IMG/VR virus record: IMGVR_UViG_3300048136_000009
Coordinates: 1 to 26,202 of that record
Source of the DNA: a virus
Reading direction: 5' to 3' (one strand)
DNA: 26,202 nucleotides
Positions 1 to 23,697 of the stretch are shown here, one piece after another. Below the pieces are notes generated by a model, which had not been told where the DNA came from, searched no databases, and saw nothing but the letters and a program-made list of their open reading frames with translations. How positions within the stretch are numbered: position 1 is the first letter of the stretch; each line of letters begins with the position of its first letter. A program made the translations under genes and the position numbers.

Positions 1-759
1 GTTGTCTAGGCTTCTGCCACTGGTGTTAATGGAAATAGATTTTTCCATAACTTGCCGATAGAGAAGCAAAAACACATCAGGCCATTCTCTGATTTCATTA
101 TTCACGATAGTTTCGTAAATATCATATGCCTTTTCGTAGCTGACTCTGTTCGTCATTACAGCCATGACGTATGCAGCTTTGAAGCCAGTCTGCTTCCAAA
201 CACTACCCGCTTTCCGAGGTGGCTTAATATGATATTCAACCTCGCTCAAAAGCTCACCAATACGACTGTTCAATACATTTTGAACATCGTCAGCCATTGG
301 GTGAGAGATGAATGATGCAGACCGCAATAAATATTGGATGGGCATAATGATTTTTGTATGCGCCCCAATAATGTCGGCTGGCGTTCTAATTTTTCCTTGA
401 TCCAAGGTTTTGTAAATATCTGTGGATCGCACAATAAAAACAGAATACGCATTGGCTTTGCCAGTTTCCACTTGAGCATTACCCCTGTGGTTTCCATTGA
501 TAAGAACCCATGAGCCTCTCTCTTTTGCAAAGACCAAAGACTCTGGGTTTAACACCCAACGGTTAAGGTTCATGGCTCTGACGTACTTACGGAAAGTTTG
601 GCGATTAAGATCGCGGTTTCCTTTGTAGTTCAGTTCAAGCAATTGCTTCATTTCTTCCGCATTTATTTCTGCGTTGAATTGAACCTGCTTACGATCAAGC
701 GGATTAGCCGCGTTAATCATCCTTTCGTGATTTAGTTCCAATAGTTCGAAGATACCCAT
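1..759 (-). CDS. ParB/DGQHR-like phage protein, 3' end beyond the left edge
   Basis: An uninterrupted frame of 253 codons runs from ATG at 759 to the window edge with no stop, so the C-terminus is missing. The start overlaps the previous gene's stop as TAATG. Residues 84-131 have the layout of the phage and mobile-element family in which a DGQHR box is followed by a strand and a TLDxGxxRTxAD motif: here WVLINGNHRG (84-93), then VFIVRSTDIYKTLDQGKIRT (107-126) and PADII. The usual DGQHR is replaced by NGNHR, so Asp and Gln are lost while His and Arg remain. Family members are related to ParB/sulfiredoxin-type folds; their function in phages is mostly unknown. The fold is inferred from motif spacing only. 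The neighbours (a nuclease and a small conserved protein) suggest a DNA-metabolism or early module. Confidence 0.72.
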   Translation of the reverse strand, partial: MGIFELLELNHERMINAANPLDRKQVQFNAEINAEEMKQLLELNYKGNRDLNRQTFRKYVRAMNLNRWVLNPESLVFAKERGSWVLINGNHRGNAQVETGKANAYSVFIVRSTDIYKTLDQGKIRTPADIIGAHTKIIMPIQYLLRSASFISHPMADDVQNVLNSRIGELLSEVEYHIKPPRKAGSVWKQTGFKAAYVMAVMTNRVSYEKAYDIYETIVNNEIREWPDVFLLLYRQVMEKSISINTSGRSLDN

Positions 760-1157
760 TATTCCACTTCCTCTACTGTGATTCTGCCGATTTCTACTGT
801 ACGGCACTCTTCAAGCTCATCCTTGATTGCAGGAGGAGCCGCGGTGAATTTGCGCTCTTCTACGGCGAACGTCAGCTTGCCATAATGTTGCGCGTTTTCT
901 GGTGACATATTGTTAAGCGTGTCACGCAGTTTCTCTTGGTCCCATGTTACCTTCTTGCCCACAGTGACCTTGAGCCTATGGTTGCCCTCTGCGATTTGGG
1001 CAGTACCAAAGTCTTTGCCATTGGCACGCAATACGTCTCGCGCCACTGGTAGAAAAATATCAGATAGTTGTTCTTCAACGTCTTTGAGTTCAAGGCGCAT
1101 CTCGCTGATAACGTGCTTGAGTTCGTCTCGACGTTCGAATAGCTCACGACTGTTCAT
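759..1157 (-). CDS. conserved phage protein of unknown function, coiled-coil N-terminus
   Basis: This is a 132-aa acidic soluble protein. Residues 1-40 are charged and heptad-like (ELFERRDELKHVISEMRLEL), suggesting a coiled coil. Residues 46-76 carry GKDFGT, a KVTVGKKVTWDQEKL stretch and a conserved-looking hydrophobic core. The C-terminal part (KFTAAPPAIKDELEECRTVE) resembles a family of small marine-phage proteins found near replication genes; I do not know its function. The ATG has a purine-rich site upstream (GCGGAAGGAATCGAC). Its stop overlaps the start of the ParB-like gene (TAATG), so the two are translationally coupled. A promoter/operator-like site lies directly upstream at 1191-1221. 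No signal peptide or membrane segment is seen. Confidence 0.75.
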   Translation of the reverse strand: MNSRELFERRDELKHVISEMRLELKDVEEQLSDIFLPVARDVLRANGKDFGTAQIAEGNHRLKVTVGKKVTWDQEKLRDTLNNMSPENAQHYGKLTFAVEERKFTAAPPAIKDELEECRTVEIGRITVEEVE

Positions 1158-1190: not shown

Positions 1191-1221
1191 CATATATCCC
1201 ACATGAAGTGGGATGTGTCAA
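1191..1221 (-). promoter_or_regulatory. candidate promoter with palindromic operator
   Basis: On the minus strand a perfect TTGACA box (1221-1216) overlaps the TGA stop of the DUF1064 gene. It is followed by the perfect 7-bp inverted repeat ATCCCAC-TTCAT-GTGGGAT (1214-1196) and then AT-rich GATATA (1198-1193, 17-bp spacing) or TATATG (1196-1191, 19-bp spacing). The -10 match is weak. An inverted repeat inside the spacer of a promoter is the classical place for a repressor site. It would control the 132-aa and ParB-like genes. A terminator reading is less likely: no T-run follows the hairpin on the minus strand, and on the plus strand the T-run starts about nine bases too late. Confidence 0.45.
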
Positions 1222-1592
1222 CGACTTTTTTTAGATAAAAATATTTCTATGCCGAGACATGCCTTCATCAGCTTCTTTTTCAGCTTGAATTCAGGCGTTT
1301 CGACGCCCTTAGCGTCTTCGACAATTGTTTCCCAATCACCGTTGGCATTTTCTTTTTCGTATCGGAAGTCTGCTATGTAGGTGCAAATCTTCTGACCGTT
1401 GACTTCTAGTGCGAACCGCACCTGTAGCTCAAGGTTGCGCACCCTACCTGCAAGCTCAAGACTCTTTATATATAGATACCTCTCAGATTCCCACTTGGAA
1501 TCGAACTTGATTCCCTGCACAGTTACTTTCTTGTTTCCGTACTTGGGTCTTGACCCACGCCGCTTGGGATTATATACAGTAGGGAAAGTCAT
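1218..1592 (-). CDS. DUF1064-family PD-(D/E)XK endonuclease (putative resolvase)
   Basis: This 124-aa protein matches the DUF1064 (PF06356) pattern along its length. It has the N-terminal KYGNKK (17-22), GIKFDSKWESERY (27-39) with Glu35, the LELQVRF strand (54-60), YIADFRY (72-78) with Asp75, VEDAKG (91-96) with Asp93-x-Lys95, and TPEFKLKKKLM (99-109). These positions fit a PD-(D/E)XK core. DUF1064 proteins are phage nucleases often compared with Holliday-junction resolvases or tRNA-endonuclease-like folds; the substrate here is inferred, not shown. The start lies only 18 bases from the divergent plus-strand gene and has no good Shine-Dalgarno sequence (GGAG is about 18 bases away). It probably depends on read-through from upstream or an unseen signal. 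Confidence 0.85.
   Translation of the reverse strand: MTFPTVYNPKRRGSRPKYGNKKVTVQGIKFDSKWESERYLYIKSLELAGRVRNLELQVRFALEVNGQKICTYIADFRYEKENANGDWETIVEDAKGVETPEFKLKKKLMKACLGIEIFLSKKSR
1550..1578 (+). promoter_or_regulatory. candidate sigma70-type promoter for the plus-strand regulator
   Basis: TTGACC (1550-1555) and TATACA (1573-1578) are separated by 17 bases on the plus strand, inside the 5' part of the divergent nuclease gene. Transcription would start near 1585, giving a leader of about 26 bases with a GGGAAGGA ribosome site before ATG 1611. The hexamers match consensus at 5/6 and 4/6. The position just upstream of the only plus-strand gene makes it more believable than the score alone. TATATA at 1571-1576 is an alternative -10 at shorter spacing. 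Confidence 0.5.
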
Positions 1593-1610
1593 TTATGGGA
1601 AGGAAACTCC

Positions 1611-1826
1611 ATGCCAAACCCCGGAAAATACAAATCCGTAGGTGTTTCGATTGAAGCGTATGATAAGCTGGTTTACATCGCGGAGCACGAAGATCGTGCT
1701 ATAGGGCGACAGCTTGCACGCATGATTGATGAAACATACGAGGATATTCAAGCGCGTGTCAACGCCAAGCCAACGTACCGCCCCCCTGTTGGGATTGGCG
1801 GCTTGGCTTCAGTCATCGAAGATTAA
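1611..1826 (+). CDS. small ribbon-helix-helix-like putative repressor
   Basis: This 71-aa protein is the only credible gene on the plus strand. It has a strong ribosome site (GGGAAGGA, about 6 bases before ATG) and its own candidate promoter. Residues 6-13 (KYKSVGVS) could form the beta ribbon, 14-26 (IEAYDKLVYIAEH) helix A and 29-48 (RAIGRQLARMIDETYEDIQA) helix B. This is the order and length of Arc/CopG-type DNA-binding domains, which dimerise and bind short operator repeats. The tail (49-71) is Pro/Gly-rich and probably flexible. Its end overlaps the 3' end of the 958-aa gene (convergent stops, TTAA). The role as a repressor of nearby promoters is inference; an orphan antitoxin-like protein is the alternative, but no toxin partner is visible. 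Confidence 0.68.
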   Translation: MPNPGKYKSVGVSIEAYDKLVYIAEHEDRAIGRQLARMIDETYEDIQARVNAKPTYRPPVGIGGLASVIED

Positions 1827-4699
1827 AGCAATCCTACGTTTCCTAGACCGCCCAGTAGTGTTGCAGCCACTGCTGGGTTTTCTGCTGCGCGTTGCCTAAT
1901 CGACGGCTGCGCGGCAGGCATAGGGGGTAAATCAGTCACCGGGGACACTTCAGGAACTGGAACACTTGTTCGGGTTACGGGAGATGGAGCCGGGGCAGAC
2001 GCTTGATCTAAATCACCCATTAAAGCAGTGGCTTGACTGACCGCAGAGGTTGCTATCTCATCCATGCTTTGTGCAGTACCCTGCGCCATAAATGAAGAAA
2101 TGCTGTCAGATATTAACTCTCCAGCTATTTGACCTCTGGTTTTTACGTCTTCACCCTGTGCAAGTTTTTTGTACTTTTGAGTGAATGCCTTGTAGAATCT
2201 AGGAGATGAAAACAGTTTTCCAACTACGCTCAGTCTAGCAATAGTTCCCAAGTTTTCTAAGGGGCTTGCGGCAATGTTTGCTGCTACAAGATCACCACCA
2301 CTTGCAGATTCCCCAAGAAGTTTCATGGTTCTGCCAAACTGCTGCATTTCATTAGCCATTTCTTTTCCGTAAATGACTTCTATCTTGGCTTTGTTTTTAG
2401 CGATCCTATCACCAAACTTGGCAAATTGCGTTCTGTCTGTAAGAAAATTCTTTTCAAAATCTCCTATCAGGTTGTCCATATAATATGTCTGAATTTTACC
2501 GATTGATTCGGCATCGTTGTCAAAAAACTTACGCAACGATGTAATGTCTTCCGCACGCATAGAGCCATCAGCGATAAACTCAGCCGCTTCTGTAGCGGTT
2601 AAATCTCCACTGGATAGCTTTTTGTTTATGCGGTTCCTATTGAACCTTGCCTCATCATCTAACGCCTTGCTTAGATTCTTTAGCAAATTAACACCTGACT
2701 CGTCAGCGCCTGCTGCCACAAAATCATCAATTACTTTTTGATCGATGTTGCGCAGTGATAAAGCGTTTAATTGTTCGGCTAGTTTGCGAACCTCTGAAGC
2801 GTTTCCCCCAAAAAGCTCATCAGCAGTAGAGCCAATTTTATCTAAATTTGTTTTAAACTTAGATCCAGAAAACTTACCTGTCTTGGTGTTCATTGAACTG
2901 CTCAACGTATCGCGCAACCATTCAGACGCGATACGTTCTCTAAGGGGTGCAAACGTTCCCTCACCAGCAAAATCATCTATGGCTTTTGCGGCGTCTTGTA
3001 GAAGCTGTGGGTTGTCCTTACGAACAAGGGAACGCATTGCATCTTTTGTATTGACGGTCACATCATTACGCACCGCATTGATCAAGGTTTTCTTACCTAT
3101 CGCGCTGCTTACTTTCTCAAACTTTTTATTGCCTTCTTTATAGAAATTACGAGCGCGGCCTAAGTCACGCACTGCGTCTCTAATCAACTTTCTACTTCCC
3201 ACGTTAGCAGAACCCGGCAATGCCTTGTTTAAGAAATTACCTGTTGTCTTACCCGCTAAATCTATCACATTGTCGATTTGAGGTAAAAAGTCATCAACAA
3301 CGCCACCAATTGTATCAGAGGTTATGTTGAACATGCCTGTGTCACGCAAACTTTTTCGAGCGTAATAAAGCTGACTGAACGAAGCCTTGTCGCCTAACTC
3401 TGCAATTTCTCTTAAAATCATGCCAGCTTTGTGCGGGTTTGTTCCAACTTGAGCGTTCTCAAAACGCCTTGCTTGCTTTGCCGCGTCTTCTGCTATGCCT
3501 TTTGTGGAAAAGATGGCTTCATCACCCGCACTGTTTCTAATAGCGTTGTTTATGTTTACAAACTCTGCTTCAGCCAGATCATCAAACGCTTTGTAAGATT
3601 GTTGAAACGCCGCGAACAAATCATCTTGTATAGCTGTGTCTTTCTCTGCGGCCTTGCCGAGATTTACCGCTATTTCGTCCATATGCTTCAGCAAACGTTT
3701 TTCTTGGTCCCTGACTGCCGAAGACAGTGTTTTGTCTCCTAGCCTAGCGGCATCAGTTAAGGCGTTTGCTGCGCCCTGTATGTCAACCTCATCGCCAGTG
3801 CCACGCAACCACTGTAAGTCACGCATAATGTTCTCATGGTTTTTGCGAAGCCTCGCAGACGTACCAAGAGCCTTTTCCGCAATTGCTTGCTGACGCGCGA
3901 CAAGAGACGGCGCACCAATAGCGTCCAAGGAGGGCAAGTACCCGCGCCTTTCTGCCTCTACGATGTCCGTTATTCTTTCTTCAGGAAGCCCCTTACCAAC
4001 ACGACCAGCACCAGAAGCAACTCTAAATGCTTTGCCTGCCAGTCCAAACACGCCTTCACCAGCGCCAGAGATTAACGCTTCCTTAGCAATGTCTTTGGCT
4101 ATCTCAGAGCCAGCTTGATCCTGAACGCCTTGTAAAGCCTCAATACCCTCTTCCGCAGCTTTACCTGCACCACCACCTAGAGTAGCACCTATAACTGCAC
4201 CAAGAACGGGAACTGGAATAGCGGCTTGACCTGCTATTGCCCCACCAACACCGCCGACTAGCGTTGTACCAAGCCCTGACAAGTCAGATAAATCCTGACG
4301 CGTAAATCCTTTTTCATCAATCAGAACCGGGACTTCGGTTTCTATCCCGAACTTTTGTGCGCCTTCAGGCATCAATGCCAGCCTGCCGCGCTGATCCCGT
4401 GTGTATTCTGTTTCGTTTAAACCAAAGCCTTCACGAAGAACCTTTTCCTGTTCTTCATTTGTGTCAGCACGACCAAGCATAGAGCGCAGCTTTGTATCTT
4501 GAACACCTGTGCTGTAATCAAAATCAAGGTTTTCGCCTCTTAAAGAAGTTTCATATGCATCTATGACATCTTTCGGCAAGTAATCTTTAGGCTTACTTTT
4601 GATGTCACTTATTTTTAAAAACTCTTCGAAAGTTGGCTTATCGCCTGCAATTTTAACATTTATATCACCAAAGCGAGATTGAACTGTGACGTTTCCCAT
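1823..4699 (-). CDS. very large internal virion / DNA-ejection-like protein
   Basis: This 958-aa protein is mostly alpha-helical and charged. Residues 141-179 are a Gly/Ala-rich hydrophobic stretch (GTTLVGGVGGAIAGQ, then VPVLGAVIGATLGGGAGKA) like the glycine-zipper membrane segments of phage ejection proteins and pore formers. The long middle (about 200-860) is helical with no catalytic motif I recognise. The end (about 895-935) is a Pro-rich linker followed by ENPAVAATLLGGLGNVGLL. It is last in a series of three large proteins downstream of the nozzle-like gene, the place of internal or ejection proteins in short-tailed phages. The start follows a GGAGG site that overlaps the previous stop. 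No lysozyme or transglycosylase domain is visible, so the function is inferred from context and composition. Confidence 0.7.
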   Translation of the reverse strand: MGNVTVQSRFGDINVKIAGDKPTFEEFLKISDIKSKPKDYLPKDVIDAYETSLRGENLDFDYSTGVQDTKLRSMLGRADTNEEQEKVLREGFGLNETEYTRDQRGRLALMPEGAQKFGIETEVPVLIDEKGFTRQDLSDLSGLGTTLVGGVGGAIAGQAAIPVPVLGAVIGATLGGGAGKAAEEGIEALQGVQDQAGSEIAKDIAKEALISGAGEGVFGLAGKAFRVASGAGRVGKGLPEERITDIVEAERRGYLPSLDAIGAPSLVARQQAIAEKALGTSARLRKNHENIMRDLQWLRGTGDEVDIQGAANALTDAARLGDKTLSSAVRDQEKRLLKHMDEIAVNLGKAAEKDTAIQDDLFAAFQQSYKAFDDLAEAEFVNINNAIRNSAGDEAIFSTKGIAEDAAKQARRFENAQVGTNPHKAGMILREIAELGDKASFSQLYYARKSLRDTGMFNITSDTIGGVVDDFLPQIDNVIDLAGKTTGNFLNKALPGSANVGSRKLIRDAVRDLGRARNFYKEGNKKFEKVSSAIGKKTLINAVRNDVTVNTKDAMRSLVRKDNPQLLQDAAKAIDDFAGEGTFAPLRERIASEWLRDTLSSSMNTKTGKFSGSKFKTNLDKIGSTADELFGGNASEVRKLAEQLNALSLRNIDQKVIDDFVAAGADESGVNLLKNLSKALDDEARFNRNRINKKLSSGDLTATEAAEFIADGSMRAEDITSLRKFFDNDAESIGKIQTYYMDNLIGDFEKNFLTDRTQFAKFGDRIAKNKAKIEVIYGKEMANEMQQFGRTMKLLGESASGGDLVAANIAASPLENLGTIARLSVVGKLFSSPRFYKAFTQKYKKLAQGEDVKTRGQIAGELISDSISSFMAQGTAQSMDEIATSAVSQATALMGDLDQASAPAPSPVTRTSVPVPEVSPVTDLPPMPAAQPSIRQRAAENPAVAATLLGGLGNVGLL

Positions 4700-12250: not shown

Positions 12251-12726
12251 TAATCTATAAGCTCAAAGTGCGGTCCATCAATAAATGGTCTACGCCCTTG
12301 TGATCTACGAAGGTCAATATAAGCGTTCATTGCTTCTTCCATTGTGCCTTCCCATTTACGAATGTCCATAGGATAAGGCATTTCAGGGGTACCCCACGCT
12401 GCGCCCCAGCAAATAGGAACGCCCAACTGAGTCGCTGCTTCTTTGATTGCATCTGCTAGATCATCATAGACAGAGAGTTCCCAACTCGCCCTGCCATTTA
12501 TGAATGCCATAATGTCGAAAGCCTTACCTTCAAGGTGCTTAGACTTCATCGTCTGACTAGCGCCCTTAGCAACGAGTTCTTTCTGCTGCTCTATAGTTCG
12601 CATACCCTGCACCACACCAAAGTCTGTCTTGGTCATGGTTATCGCCATTTTGATTACAGCCTGTAGTCGGTCATCTATACCTTCAAGCCGATCAAGGCTA
12701 CGCCTGCTTAACTTAAACTCGCTCAT
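12250..12726 (-). CDS. endolysin, M15-family (VanY-like) peptidase
   Basis: The protein cleaves peptide cross-links in peptidoglycan at the end of infection. I choose ATG 12726 (158 aa) because AGAGGAAG lies just upstream; the longer frame from 12846 would run through the holin gene. The zinc site of M15 peptidases is visible: SKHLEGKAFDI (62-72, His64 and Asp71) and DGPHFEL (150-156, His153). FGVVQGMRTIEQQKELVAKG (36-55) is the usual strand and arm before it. Length and layout fit single-domain L-alanyl-D-glutamate-type phage endolysins. There is no signal peptide, so export would need the holin just upstream. It is last in the small-gene lysis cassette. Confidence 0.9.
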   Translation of the reverse strand: MSEFKLSRRSLDRLEGIDDRLQAVIKMAITMTKTDFGVVQGMRTIEQQKELVAKGASQTMKSKHLEGKAFDIMAFINGRASWELSVYDDLADAIKEAATQLGVPICWGAAWGTPEMPYPMDIRKWEGTMEEAMNAYIDLRRSQGRRPFIDGPHFELID

Positions 12727-12727
12727 G

Positions 12728-13117
12728 TTACTTCCTCTTAAAAAATGCTTGCGCCCCGCGCACACCGAAACTCGCTGAAATTGCAATCCCAAGGCTGTAA
12801 AAATACCAGTCGGGCGCTTTAGAAAGCTGTTCAAACCCACGATCAACCCAACCTTCTGCGCCCGGAATCCAGCATAAAATCAATGGAATAGACAAAATAA
12901 TCACGAACCACTCGTCTTTCCAGCTTGACTTGGCCCCCTCTGCCATAATGCGCTCCCAGTCGGCAACGCTTGTCTCTTTTGACAATAATATCTGGGCTTT
13001 CGCCTTCGCCTCAGTTAGCTTTAACTCCGCTTCGGCTGCGTTTTTATCAGCTTTGCCTTGCAGCCAAGAGCCTGCGAGGTTCGCTATTGGGCCTAATGCC
13101 GCGGTAAAAATACTCAT
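12728..13117 (-). CDS. holin of the GTA/3TM type
   Basis: The protein should form lesions in the inner membrane that release the endolysin. ATG 13117 is chosen because it overlaps the previous stop as ATGA; it gives 129 aa. Residues 1-20 are a weakly hydrophobic N-terminal helix (FTAALGPIANLAGSWL). Residues 22-62 are an amphipathic Ala/Lys/Glu helix. WKDEWFVIILSIPLILCWIP (66-85) and YFYSLGIAISASFGVRGAQA (105-124) are membrane segments. The WKDEW motif after a charged helix is typical of 3TM GTA-type holins. It lies one base before the endolysin gene. The assignment rests on motif and context. Confidence 0.78.
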   Translation of the reverse strand: MSIFTAALGPIANLAGSWLQGKADKNAAEAELKLTEAKAKAQILLSKETSVADWERIMAEGAKSSWKDEWFVIILSIPLILCWIPGAEGWVDRGFEQLSKAPDWYFYSLGIAISASFGVRGAQAFFKRK

Positions 13118-13314
13118 TTTTCCGAACCCAACCAAACGGCTATCGTTCCCGTCATAGCCCCACTGACCACTGAAATCATTGCAGATTGCTGTGTTGACAA
13201 GTCATCCAAACTCATCCCCCACTCAATCACGCGGATATACATAATTGTCATAACAACCATCATAAAACGTGGCATGAGCTTATATTGCAGAATCTTTTCA
13301 AAGGTATTTGCCAT
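13114..13314 (-). CDS. two-TM small membrane protein, possible second holin
   Basis: This 66-aa protein has hydrophobic segments at about 14-34 (MPRFMMVVMTIMYIRVIEWG) and 44-63 (SAMISVVSGAMTGTIAVWLG), a short loop and a charged C-terminus (GSEK), which is the layout of class II holins or antiholins. It has an AGAGGTG ribosome site and overlaps the next gene as ATGA. Marine phages often carry such a protein next to the 3TM holin. Which of the two is the holin and which the modulator cannot be told from sequence. Confidence 0.72.
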   Translation of the reverse strand: MANTFEKILQYKLMPRFMMVVMTIMYIRVIEWGMSLDDLSTQQSAMISVVSGAMTGTIAVWLGSEK

Positions 13315-13315
13315 G

Positions 13316-13570
13316 TTACACCTCTATGTTTAACTTCGTTCCTTGCGGTCTATCCGCACTGGTCTTTCGCCCGAATCTATCATAACTTTCCTGTAAGTCC
13401 AATCTCTGCTTTGCAAGAGCCTCTAAATGGCTGTGGTTGGCCCTATGCTCCTTCTCCACACGTTGCTCCGCTAAATGTGTTTCTATGCGCTCACGCGCTT
13501 TTGTTTGGGCGTGTATGTCGCTTCCCACATTAAACGGCATGTTGCCTACACCTGTCAGACCATCAGCCAC
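13316..13570 (-). CDS. small charged helical protein of the lysis cassette
   Basis: This 84-aa protein (GTG start) has a helical middle rich in Arg, Glu, Lys and Gln (KARERIETHLAEQRVEKEHR, then SHLEALAKQRLDLQESYDRF) and a basic tail. No membrane segment or known motif is seen. The GTG at 13570 overlaps the preceding 40-aa ORF's end and has GAGG nearby. An in-frame ATG at residue 11 is an alternative start. It lies between membrane proteins in a tightly packed operon, so it may act in lysis control or as a minor virion protein. I do not recognise a family. Confidence 0.65.
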   Translation of the reverse strand: MADGLTGVGNMPFNVGSDIHAQTKARERIETHLAEQRVEKEHRANHSHLEALAKQRLDLQESYDRFGRKTSADRPQGTKLNIEV

Positions 13571-13685
13571 AGCCGCCTCGTTCTATAACCCACTCCGCTA
13601 TTAATCGACTATGCGTAATAATCACAATCTTGCCTCGATCATCATACACAGCCCAACGCATACGCCTTACTTGTACTAACTTCAC
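13563..13685 (-). CDS. small 40-aa hypothetical protein
   Basis: A 41-codon frame (GTG start) encodes VKLVQVRRMRWAVYDDRGKI (1-20), then a beta-strand/helix pattern VIITHSRLIAEWVIERGG. Its start overlaps the stop of the 155-aa gene as GTGA and its stop overlaps the next gene's start. It fills a gap of about 110 bases that would otherwise be odd in this dense cassette. There is no strong ribosome site, so translation would depend on coupling. The composition looks like a real small alpha/beta protein; its function is unknown. Confidence 0.5.
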   Translation of the reverse strand: MKLVQVRRMRWAVYDDRGKIVIITHSRLIAEWVIERGGCG

Positions 13686-14149
13686 CCATTCGCCAACTTA
13701 TCTACACCCCATATCATCGCTACGGTTCCCGCCACAAAAATTGTAACGCCTAACGCCAATGAAATACCCCAGAACAACCTATCTCTGGCAGCAGCTTGGG
13801 CTTCCAAGGCTTCTTTCTGGCGCTTCCTTGCTTCGGCCTGTTCGCGCACCACAAGATCCCACATGCCCGGTGGTCCATATAAGCGGCAATGGCTGCGAAG
13901 GGTTTCCATAGCTTCTTTGTGGGCCATTTTAGCTTGTGCTATGGCAAAGCCTTCCGCTTCGCTGGAAGTCAGTCTTCCCAACGGTCCTTTGTGCTTTCCC
14001 GATTCCGCAATAGCTATGTCGGCTTCTAGCTTTGCCAATTTCCCAAAATGAGGCATAAGACTGTTTACGTCTTTGCCAGCTTGAACCGCGGAGCTAATGC
14101 CCCCCGCTATTTTAGTTACAGCGCCTGCTAAGGCTAAGACTTCTATCAT
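13682..14149 (-). CDS. conserved marine-phage protein with C-terminal membrane anchor
   Basis: This 155-aa protein has a hydrophobic, small-residue N-terminus (IEVLALAGAVTKIAGGISSA), a segment QAGKDVNSLMPHFGKLAKLE (23-42), a charged helical middle (about 65-125) and one clear transmembrane helix at 126-147 (FWGISLALGVTIFVAGTVAM) with a short tail. The GKDxxSLMPHFGK pattern and C-terminal anchor resemble a family common in marine phages near lysis genes. Function is unproven; suggestions are a membrane or spanin-like part or a minor virion protein. Its start overlaps the 54-aa gene as ATGA, and its stop overlaps the 40-aa ORF. Confidence 0.72.
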   Translation of the reverse strand: MIEVLALAGAVTKIAGGISSAVQAGKDVNSLMPHFGKLAKLEADIAIAESGKHKGPLGRLTSSEAEGFAIAQAKMAHKEAMETLRSHCRLYGPPGMWDLVVREQAEARKRQKEALEAQAAARDRLFWGISLALGVTIFVAGTVAMIWGVDKLANG

Positions 14150-14310
14150 GCTTCACGAAAGCTCCTTGGACAATAATAATCAGGATCAACGCGATAAACG
14201 CGCTTGTTATACATGCCGTCACATTGATAGTGACAGGATTTATAAAACCAGCTTCCGTAGCCGTTTATGAATACATGCCCATATCCTATAAATATAAGCA
14301 CACAAAGCAT
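14146..14310 (-). CDS. small Cys-rich protein with N-terminal hydrophobic segment
   Basis: A 54-aa frame starts as TAATG on the stop of the 77-aa gene and ends as ATGA on the start of the 155-aa gene, so both ends are coupled. Residues 1-15 are hydrophobic (LCVLIFIGYGHVFI), like a short signal or membrane segment. The rest is rich in Cys, Tyr and Trp: GSWFYKSCHYQCDGMYNKRV (19-38) and VDPDYYCPRSF (41-51). The paired Cys suggest disulphides in the periplasm. The CxxxC and YYCP pattern resembles small accessory proteins in other marine-phage lysis regions. A lipoprotein-type spanin was considered, but no lipobox is clear. The function is unknown. Confidence 0.7.
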   Translation of the reverse strand: MLCVLIFIGYGHVFINGYGSWFYKSCHYQCDGMYNKRVYRVDPDYYCPRSFREA

Positions 14311-14543
14311 TATCGCTCCATCAAGCGATCTATTTTTTCTTCAAGGCGATCAAACCGTGAAACGATCTGGCTCATTACAGTCGTACTGTCGGCCTTAGTG
14401 ACGTATTCTTTTGCCATTTCTTCTCTTGTTTTGTTCAAGAGAATTTGAACGCGCCCAAGTTCAGCGTGTTGTGTTTTTATCCACCAACCTAAACCACCGA
14501 TTGCAGTGGTTAAGCCTAAGTTTATGAGCGCGTTCATTTCCAT
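14310..14543 (-). CDS. membrane-anchored coiled-coil protein (spanin- or holin-associated?)
   Basis: This 77-aa protein has a hydrophobic N-terminal segment (ALINLGLTTAIGGLGWWIKT, about 5-24) followed by a long charged coiled coil ending in VMSQIVSRFDRLEEKIDRLM (56-75). One N-terminal membrane helix plus a periplasmic or cytoplasmic coiled coil is the layout of i-spanin-like and T4 RI-like small proteins. Sequence alone cannot decide which, or whether it is neither. It overlaps the 76-aa gene by TAATG and the next gene by TAATG, so it belongs to the coupled cassette. Confidence 0.68.
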   Translation of the reverse strand: MEMNALINLGLTTAIGGLGWWIKTQHAELGRVQILLNKTREEMAKEYVTKADSTTVMSQIVSRFDRLEEKIDRLMER

Positions 14544-14773
14544 TATTGTGCTGCTACCTCTTGAGCTTCTTCAGACTCTTCCAAAGACTTCGTAAGCATA
14601 TCCATGAAGGCTTGCTTGCCGACAGCGAGTTGATCCAGATTGAACTGGGCAGAACCCATCTTTCTGTCCAAGTCAGCAACGTGGTTAATCATAACCTTTT
14701 GCTGATCTGTAAGTTGGTCTTCAGTGTAGTCTGTGCCGTTGATCGTGACGGTTTTTGTTTGTTTCTCGGCCAT
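14543..14773 (-). CDS. small conserved phage protein (DUF6447-like)
   Basis: This 76-aa protein starts with a beta hairpin (KTVTINGTDYTEDQLTDQQK, about 6-25) followed by two helices (VMINHVADLDRKMGSAQFNL and QLAVGKQAFMDMLTKSLEE). The pattern TINGxxYxxxxL-(S/T)DxxK followed by a helical hairpin matches a small family widespread in marine phages, which I believe is called DUF6447. I cannot check that number here. It has a strong AAGGAG ribosome site. It may be a structural chaperone or fibre-associated helper; no direct evidence is seen. Confidence 0.72.
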   Translation of the reverse strand: MAEKQTKTVTINGTDYTEDQLTDQQKVMINHVADLDRKMGSAQFNLDQLAVGKQAFMDMLTKSLEESEEAQEVAAQ

Positions 14774-14799
14774 CGTGATCTCCTTTCGTTAAGTTAAAA

Positions 14800-15171
14800 T
14801 TAGCTCCAAGGAACCCCAGAAGCAGTGGTTGCAGCGCGGTCAATTTGGCCTTGTACTTTAGCAGTACGGTTAGCCTCAACGCGAGCTTTGGCTTCAGCGG
14901 CGGTTTCGTCGCCTTCGATCAAGCTGTCGTAGACCCAACCAAGAACATCGTTTTCAGTCAAATCCGCGTATGGAATATAATCTGAGCTTGATGGATCAGG
15001 GTCGCAGCGGAGCTTGCCGCCTTCTGTTGCGGTGTAGTCGTAGGTGTCGTTACCTTCTGCATCCGTTCCAGTTACATTTCCTGCTACGCAAGACCAATAG
15101 ACGAGGATTACTCCACCGTCCGAATCTTTATGCGTCATGTTGTTGACGCTCCAAGTTGTTGTAATAGCCAT
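14800..15171 (-). CDS. small conserved marine-phage protein downstream of the fibre gene
   Basis: ATG 15171 is chosen (123 aa) because AAGGAG lies upstream; an earlier start at 15204 has no ribosome site. The protein has an N-terminal beta domain (TTTWSVNNMTHKDSDGGVIL) and a motif YIPYADLTENDVLGWVYDSL (54-73). A helical C-terminal part (ETAAEAKARVEANRTAKVQG) ends in TTASGVPW. The combination of DxxGG, LTExDVxGWV and a terminal GxPW tail is typical of a family in marine T4-like and podovirus-like phages, usually beside tail-fibre genes. Function is unknown; a fibre-bound or assembly role is suggested by position. Confidence 0.75.
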   Translation of the reverse strand: MAITTTWSVNNMTHKDSDGGVILVYWSCVAGNVTGTDAEGNDTYDYTATEGGKLRCDPDPSSSDYIPYADLTENDVLGWVYDSLIEGDETAAEAKARVEANRTAKVQGQIDRAATTASGVPWS

Positions 15172-23099: not shown

Positions 23100-23381
23100 T
23101 TATGACAAAAAGATTGTCAGTTCGTTGCTTGATCCCGTGAAAGCACTAACATACGCACCGCTTGTAGCGAGAATACCATCATCAGGGATGTTTAAGTGAT
23201 GCATCCCTGTTGGAAAAGTTTGCGTAATCAGTGTATCGCCCGAACCGCTACCATCTTTAATTGTAAAAGCACCCGCTGCGGCTGCATAAATTACAATTTG
23301 ACGAATGCGAGAACGAGCAGGGCCAACAACAGCCGCAGATGTACCCTGCGCCCAATTATATGCCTTTACTGGACCTGCCAT
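23100..23381 (-). CDS. small beta-rich protein, possible capsid-associated protein
   Basis: This 93-aa protein starts AGPVKAYNWAQGTSAAVVGP, continues with RSRIRQIVIYAAAAGAFTIK and ends with LNIPDDGILATSGAYVSAFT then ELTIFLS. The strand-turn layout and the P-x-DGI plus LTIFL pair it with the 95-aa protein. An AGGAGG site lies before the ATG. Small beta proteins at this location are common in marine phages and usually uncharacterised. Decoration of the capsid is a guess. Confidence 0.72.
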   Translation of the reverse strand: MAGPVKAYNWAQGTSAAVVGPARSRIRQIVIYAAAAGAFTIKDGSGSGDTLITQTFPTGMHHLNIPDDGILATSGAYVSAFTGSSNELTIFLS

Positions 23382-23393
23382 GTTAGCCTCCTA

Positions 23394-23603
23394 TTAAGAT
23401 AGTGCAGCGCCAACAGCAGTAACCCAAGCGGCTCCTGTATTGATTACCAAACAATATTCGTTGTTGCCTGCGCCATTGTCGCTAACAATGTAAACAGTAC
23501 CAACAGTAGTATCTGCAAAAGCAGGAAGGTCAGCAGTTGCTACAACTGGAACCTCAAAGCCATTGGTGGACTGTACTGGTCCTGAAAAATGTGTAGTTGC
23601 CAT
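23394..23603 (-). CDS. small 69-aa beta-rich protein
   Basis: This 69-aa protein begins ATTHFSGPVQSTNGFEVPVV (2-21), then TTVGTVYIVSDNGAGNNEYC (32-51) and ends LVINTGAAWVTAVGAALS. ATTHFSGPxxxxxGF is a repeated opening of small marine-phage proteins; the rest looks like a beta sandwich. It has a strong GAGAGGAG site. It is the first gene after the capsid terminator, so it may be made from its own promoter or by read-through. The function is unknown. Confidence 0.72.
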   Translation of the reverse strand: MATTHFSGPVQSTNGFEVPVVATADLPAFADTTVGTVYIVSDNGAGNNEYCLVINTGAAWVTAVGAALS

Positions 23604-23669
23604 GTTTTTCTCCTCTCGTGTCCGAGGTCAACTCCATATGCCTGCAAAGCATAAAGATATATACCGAGC

Positions 23670-23697
23670 ATTATTACTCGAAAACAGAATAACACAA
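23670..23697 (-). promoter_or_regulatory. weak candidate promoter after the capsid terminator
   Basis: On the minus strand TTGTGT (23697-23692) and AATAAT (23675-23670) are spaced by 16 bases. The -10 matches 5/6 but the -35 only 3/6. It lies just behind the strong terminator and 67 bases before the 69-aa gene, which would otherwise depend on read-through. The 178-base gap at 23604-23782 holds this, the terminator and no gene. Confidence 0.33.

Follow-up and report, generated by a model that had tools for sequence, protein, structure and literature searches.

A conserved 71-residue protein of uncultured marine phages, its constrained promoter and a TGGG motif in early and replication promoters: a candidate viral repressor

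The window (the whole stretch of 26,202 nucleotides analysed here, positions 1 to 26,202 of IMG/VR record IMGVR_UViG_3300048136_000009) contains a small plus-strand gene, called the regulator gene below, with a DUF1064 nuclease gene on one side and a gene for a 958-aa virion protein on the other, which agrees with its predicted place between the virion genes and the genes of DNA metabolism. The features of the locus are as follows.

759..1157, minus strand: phrog_2480, first gene of the replication/recombination operon, a predicted target
1193..1221, minus strand: second promoter with CCCA-N7-TGGG (ATCCCACTTCATGTGGGAT, 1197-1215), a promoter-like sequence 5′ of the replication operon
1218..1592, minus strand: divergent DUF1064/Holliday-junction-resolvase-like nuclease gene, codons 4-16 of which carry the regulator promoter and putative operator
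1543..1570, plus strand: putative operator, half-sites TTGGGT, CCCA and TTGGGA at a spacing of 10-11 bp, over the -35 box and just 5′ of the -10 box
1550..1578, plus strand: regulator promoter TTGACC-17-TATACA (TTGACC 1550-1555, TATACA 1573-1578), inside the divergent nuclease gene
1600..1604, plus strand: Shine-Dalgarno sequence AAGGA, 6 nt 5′ of the regulator ATG, spacer conserved in relatives
1611..1826, plus strand: regulator gene, 71 aa, ATG start, predicted ribbon-helix-helix (RHH) protein with a conserved N-terminal domain, a variable linker and the conserved C-terminal tail GIGGxxSV(I/L)ED
1733..1762, minus strand: possible promoter TTGACA-18-TATGTT within the regulator gene and directed towards the nuclease gene, kept in 15 of 31 relatives
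1823..4699, minus strand: convergent virion protein gene, 958 aa, probably a DNA-transfer protein by position (compare DSL-LC04); its stop codon overlaps that of the regulator gene
1850..1886, plus strand: terminator-like hairpin (11 pairs, 1850-1878) and T-rich tail, within the 3′-terminal part of the 958-aa gene

The 71-aa frame, present with its ribosome site as originally predicted, was found again in all relatives that could be read. Scanning public viral contigs with the regulator yielded 125 relatives, 80 of which were kept, and a scan with the nuclease was added; together they gave 160 fetched loci with a complete regulator copy, many contigs having been fetched twice, which correspond to 91 distinct gene-plus-upstream sequences and 40 distinct proteins. 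Among these 40 proteins, the diversity at codon positions 1, 2 and 3 was 0.22, 0.13 and 0.53, respectively, indicating selection on the regulator protein in this frame. Residues 1-43 and the C-terminal tail are conserved across relatives and the linker between them varies. Wherever the neighbours could be read, the gene order was constant (nuclease start, 17-20 nt, regulator on the opposite strand, convergent virion gene), and the regulator is kept in sequence and position even where identity in the adjoining virion gene falls to about 25%. All 80 nuclease loci of a further, later scan, which overlaps the first set, carry the regulator. Across a large group of uncultured marine phages the locus has a constant position, and the conservation of both gene and promoter in related phages, proposed originally as a check, was confirmed in silico. 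The accompanying statement that all other genes lie on the minus strand holds for the 26-kb fragment, whereas in G001, a near-complete relative of 55 kb, a predicted early-gene block of about a dozen genes (23.8-29.9 kb) shares the strand of the regulator.

The predicted TTGACC-17-TATACA promoter inside the divergent nuclease gene is present and conserved, and transcription from it would start near 1585. A scan for the promoter consensus alone did not exceed chance, with three sites of at most one mismatch against 1.3 expected. The decisive evidence, and the strongest single result of this analysis, is synonymous constraint in the nuclease gene over the promoter boxes: across 49 distinct nuclease sequences, synonymous diversity relative to expectation was 0.11 at codons 5-16, compared with 0.78 at codons 17-24 and 0.76 at codons 25-124. 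The promoter is therefore under strong selection, and we regard the regulator gene and its promoter as genuine with near certainty. The constrained block consists of TTGGGTCTTGACCCACG and TTGGGATTATATACAGTAGG with a short variable centre between them, and reaches past the -35 and -10 boxes; codons 10-11, the only freely varying ones within it, form the centre between two half-sites. The half-site cores are TGGG at 1544-1547, CCCA at 1554-1557 and TGGG at 1565-1568. Because TTGGGT, 5′ of the -35 box, is not needed by a promoter alone, the block looks like a promoter plus an operator. A pattern built on the core block matched 119 stretches of viral DNA, and the regulator was present at 76 of the 77 pattern loci that carried new ids (for the most part contigs of the earlier set, cut differently), the lone exception ending 55 nt after the promoter begins. 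In the G11S clade, the regulator promoter has TTGGCTC for TTGGGTC and the replication promoter CCTT for CCCA; covariation of protein and operator was dropped as evidence, since this change represents one lineage and the early promoters of the clade keep TGGG.

The RHH fold of the regulator is probable rather than proven. Its best natural sequence match in the PDB is HP0222, a solved Arc/MetJ-type protein (PMC6269979), at an E value of about 0.1 and without gaps over 42 residues (12-53). RHH_7, the Pfam family of HP0222, matched four of 40 relatives below its cut-off (best E 0.13), and an Arc-like PHROG matched one of the 40 (E 0.14). The window protein itself had no Pfam match, and in Pfam, NCBIfam and PHROG scans of the 40 relatives no family passed the threshold, the matches being scattered and at chance level. 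The AlphaFold2 monomer model (mean pLDDT 68, pTM 0.46) contains helices at 14-27 and 29-52, where an RHH protein would have them, and no beta strand, which may not appear in the model of a lone RHH monomer; the invariant residues fall in the predicted strand and helices. Foldseek returned no significant structural match for this model. With the shallow regulator alignment, hhalign comparisons with cellular RHH_1 (18 sequences, probability 4.5%), CopG and Arc were not convincing. A search of 299 genomes with RHH_7 gave no match, and the control genomes gave none either, so that it was uninformative. The RHH-like domain of the original prediction thus has weak computational support, from HP0222 and from the position of the two helices, whereas no profile passes and no strand is seen.

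Repeated half-sites were found in the regulator promoter and also elsewhere among the viral promoters. CCCA-N7-TGGG occurs twice in the 26.2 kb (1554 and 1198), both times in a promoter spacer, and the second occurrence lies 5′ of the replication operon. The products of this operon in G001 include a Sak4-like annealing protein, a helicase and a primase/helicase. Upstream of this operon in relatives, TTGAC is kept in all 31 sequence clusters and CCCA-N7-TG in 27 of them. Half-sites are common to the regulator promoter and the early ones, but the layout differs. The early-promoter pattern TTGAC-N9-15-TGGG-N5-7-GGG has 15 sites in six large genomes, against 0.5 expected from shuffles, a count made in the very genomes from whose inspection the pattern was designed; 14 of the 15 stand 54-64 nt 5′ of an ATG with a ribosome site. 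This stricter pattern superseded a looser one containing CTAG (15 sites, 1.6 expected). Nine further regulator-bearing records (302 kb), which are kin of the six and of which at least one site (G678 12454) had been seen beforehand, gave nine matches, including one (G676 1114) that resembles the only non-promoter match among the six genomes. The same pattern had no match in seven phages without the regulator gene (397 kb), and a reversed-pattern control had none throughout. These comparison phages are distant, the closest terminases being 55-62% identical, so the co-occurrence of gene and motif may represent a single event of descent. The case for a shared motif is strong and that for a regulon good, and the conserved early promoter class stands as a finding even if another factor owns the motif.

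In G001-G006, genomes in which the frequency of CTAG is about half of expectation, almost every TGGG promoter has a CTAG, mostly as TCTAG, directly after its -10 region. The gap between the nuclease gene and the gene at 759-1157 is an insertion hotspot, in which 29 of about 160 fetched loci have an insert of about 400-600 bp. Each insert holds one extra plus-strand gene, the genes belonging to unrelated families (for example L169 14255-14563, L023, L125 and L034), and they are possibly accessory or anti-defence genes; the inserts of G003 and G678 carry their own TGGG-type promoter. Five loci (L132, L133, L134, L143 and L149) contain two tandem copies of the gene matching window 1-807 (phrog_5931), whose identity to the copy in the window is about 67% and 52%.

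We infer that the regulator takes the RHH fold, dimerises, binds the motif and represses rather than activates; that it is an Arc/SvtR-like autorepressor which also represses early and replication promoters is somewhat more probable than all other readings together. It would be made from a short (about 300 nt) single-gene mRNA, transcribed from its own sigma-70-like promoter, provided that the hairpin at 1850-1878 terminates transcription. The protein, probably dimeric, would bind TGGG/CCCA half-sites spaced by about one turn of the helix. In the regulator promoter, such half-sites cover the -35 box and the margin of the -10 box, which suggests self-repression; related ones that surround the -10 box in the promoters of the replication operon and of the early genes would allow these promoters to be shut down as the regulator accumulates. 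The original prediction had a small repressor timing early and late expression; with half-sites at its own, early and replication promoters, early timing is plausible, and the support is limited to the early side.

An alternative that we consider unlikely, yet the most serious one, is that TGGG marks a class of phage promoters recognised by a different factor, either another phage protein or a host regulator, with the small protein not binding the motif and the regulator promoter simply a member of this class. In most early promoters the motif lies across the -10 box, accompanied by the TCTAG element, and it could be a promoter signature; it could also be bound by another core protein. One candidate reader is a 109-aa protein with a helix-turn-helix (HTH)-like C terminus (G001 23366-23695), relatives of which occur in four of the other five genomes. 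However, these relatives are only 33-39% identical and no match was found in G005, whereas the regulator is 66-81% identical in all five. The extra half-site 5′ of the -35 box of the regulator promoter, constrained as well, also argues against mere membership. A D5-like HTH protein of G001 was rejected as a common regulator on account of its absence from the five other genomes. Among the non-structural proteins common to the six genomes, the regulator is the only one with a recognised regulator-like pattern, and on balance we favour the regulator as the reader of the motif, and repression as its effect, with confidence a little above even.

The regulator might instead activate transcription or organise DNA structurally, for example at a replication start, in packaging or in activation of the replication operon. 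Its gene borders the replication module, and RHH proteins such as AvtR (PMC5569661) and AmrZ (PMC3325190) are described in these reports as activating as well as repressing. This reading is nevertheless improbable, given that the half-sites overlap or touch the -35 and -10 boxes, where binding of a protein would normally obstruct the polymerase. Very improbable is a main role of the antisense or convergent transcript itself in damping nuclease expression or virion-to-replication read-through, the latter a part of the original prediction. It would suit a promoter inside the nuclease gene, overlapping stop codons and a possible minus-strand promoter inside the regulator gene, but not the strong selection at the level of the regulator protein. 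Moreover, a terminator-like hairpin about 26 nt 3′ of the regulator stop, common in relatives and missing in some, would stop the transcript close to where the 958-aa gene ends, which makes a read-through role less likely than the repressor role. The hairpin sequence is also translated, as a conserved virion-protein peptide, and together with its loss in some relatives this leaves the read-through idea some probability. An RHH antitoxin, suggested by the RHH head and the conserved, probably flexible tail, a layout common in type II antitoxins, is hardly credible and was rejected, because both neighbours lie on the opposite strand and no adjacent codirectional toxin gene was found at any locus examined.

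A wider form of the preferred repressor reading, which we put forward as tentative and somewhat doubtful, would make the regulator the master switch of a regulon in widespread uncultured marine phages, reading TGGG boxes in early and replication promoters, including those of the adjoining exchangeable accessory genes, and contacting a further partner through its tail. The closest terminases, 55-62% identical, are those of the pelagiphages HTVC027P and HTVC023P and the phages 023Pt_psg01 and DSL-LC04, in none of which the regulator was matched, and a search of the annotated phages in the collection with the regulator protein gave no match at E 1. Window 12722-15037, the peptidase/chitinase region, is 91% identical to Roseobacter phage CRP-902, and most of the remaining window has no such match; this pattern is taken as a recent exchange between phages, and the match hints at hosts that are apparently Roseobacter-like. 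One metagenome-assembled genome (MAG) contig matches the regulator strongly, and two other matches among 390 genomes are marginal. A cellular origin was rejected, as this contig shows phage gene order and is likely a phage contig binned with its host.

If the repressor reading is true, gene control in uncultured phages becomes directly testable, and the motif would provide a handle for finding early genes, as has been done for archaeal viruses (PMC11065993); if the master-switch form is true, the motif would list early, possibly anti-defence, genes across the phage group. Small viral repressors are already known; here a family without a Pfam or PHROG match is accompanied by a predicted binding site and predicted target promoters in many marine phages. 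SvtR and AvtR, small RHH proteins encoded by archaeal viruses, repress the promoters of their own genes and, by way of repeated sites, act on further promoters of the virus (PMC5569661). The regulator resembles them as a small virus-encoded protein of predicted RHH type with repeated sites at its own and other viral promoters; they differ in belonging to archaeal viruses and promoters, no sequence relation was shown, and binding is proven for them and inferred for the regulator. Arc of phage P22 and RelB (PMC2812701) are likewise RHH dimers; they bind near promoter boxes, to half-sites that repeat along one side of the DNA. Unlike both, the regulator has an additional conserved C-terminal tail; its profile comparison with Arc is not significant, and RelB works with the toxin RelE, whereas the regulator has no partner gene. 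HP0222 of Helicobacter pylori (PDB 1X93), an RHH dimer and the closest natural PDB sequence, is a cellular protein, matched only at the E value given above and through a Pfam family whose cut-off the regulator family does not reach. Finally, Aca8 of SIRV2 is a predicted winged HTH protein and acts on an archaeal core promoter; the likeness lies in the arrangement, a single conserved motif at the early promoters of a virus, which a single small DNA-binding protein of that virus is proposed to shut (PMC11065993).
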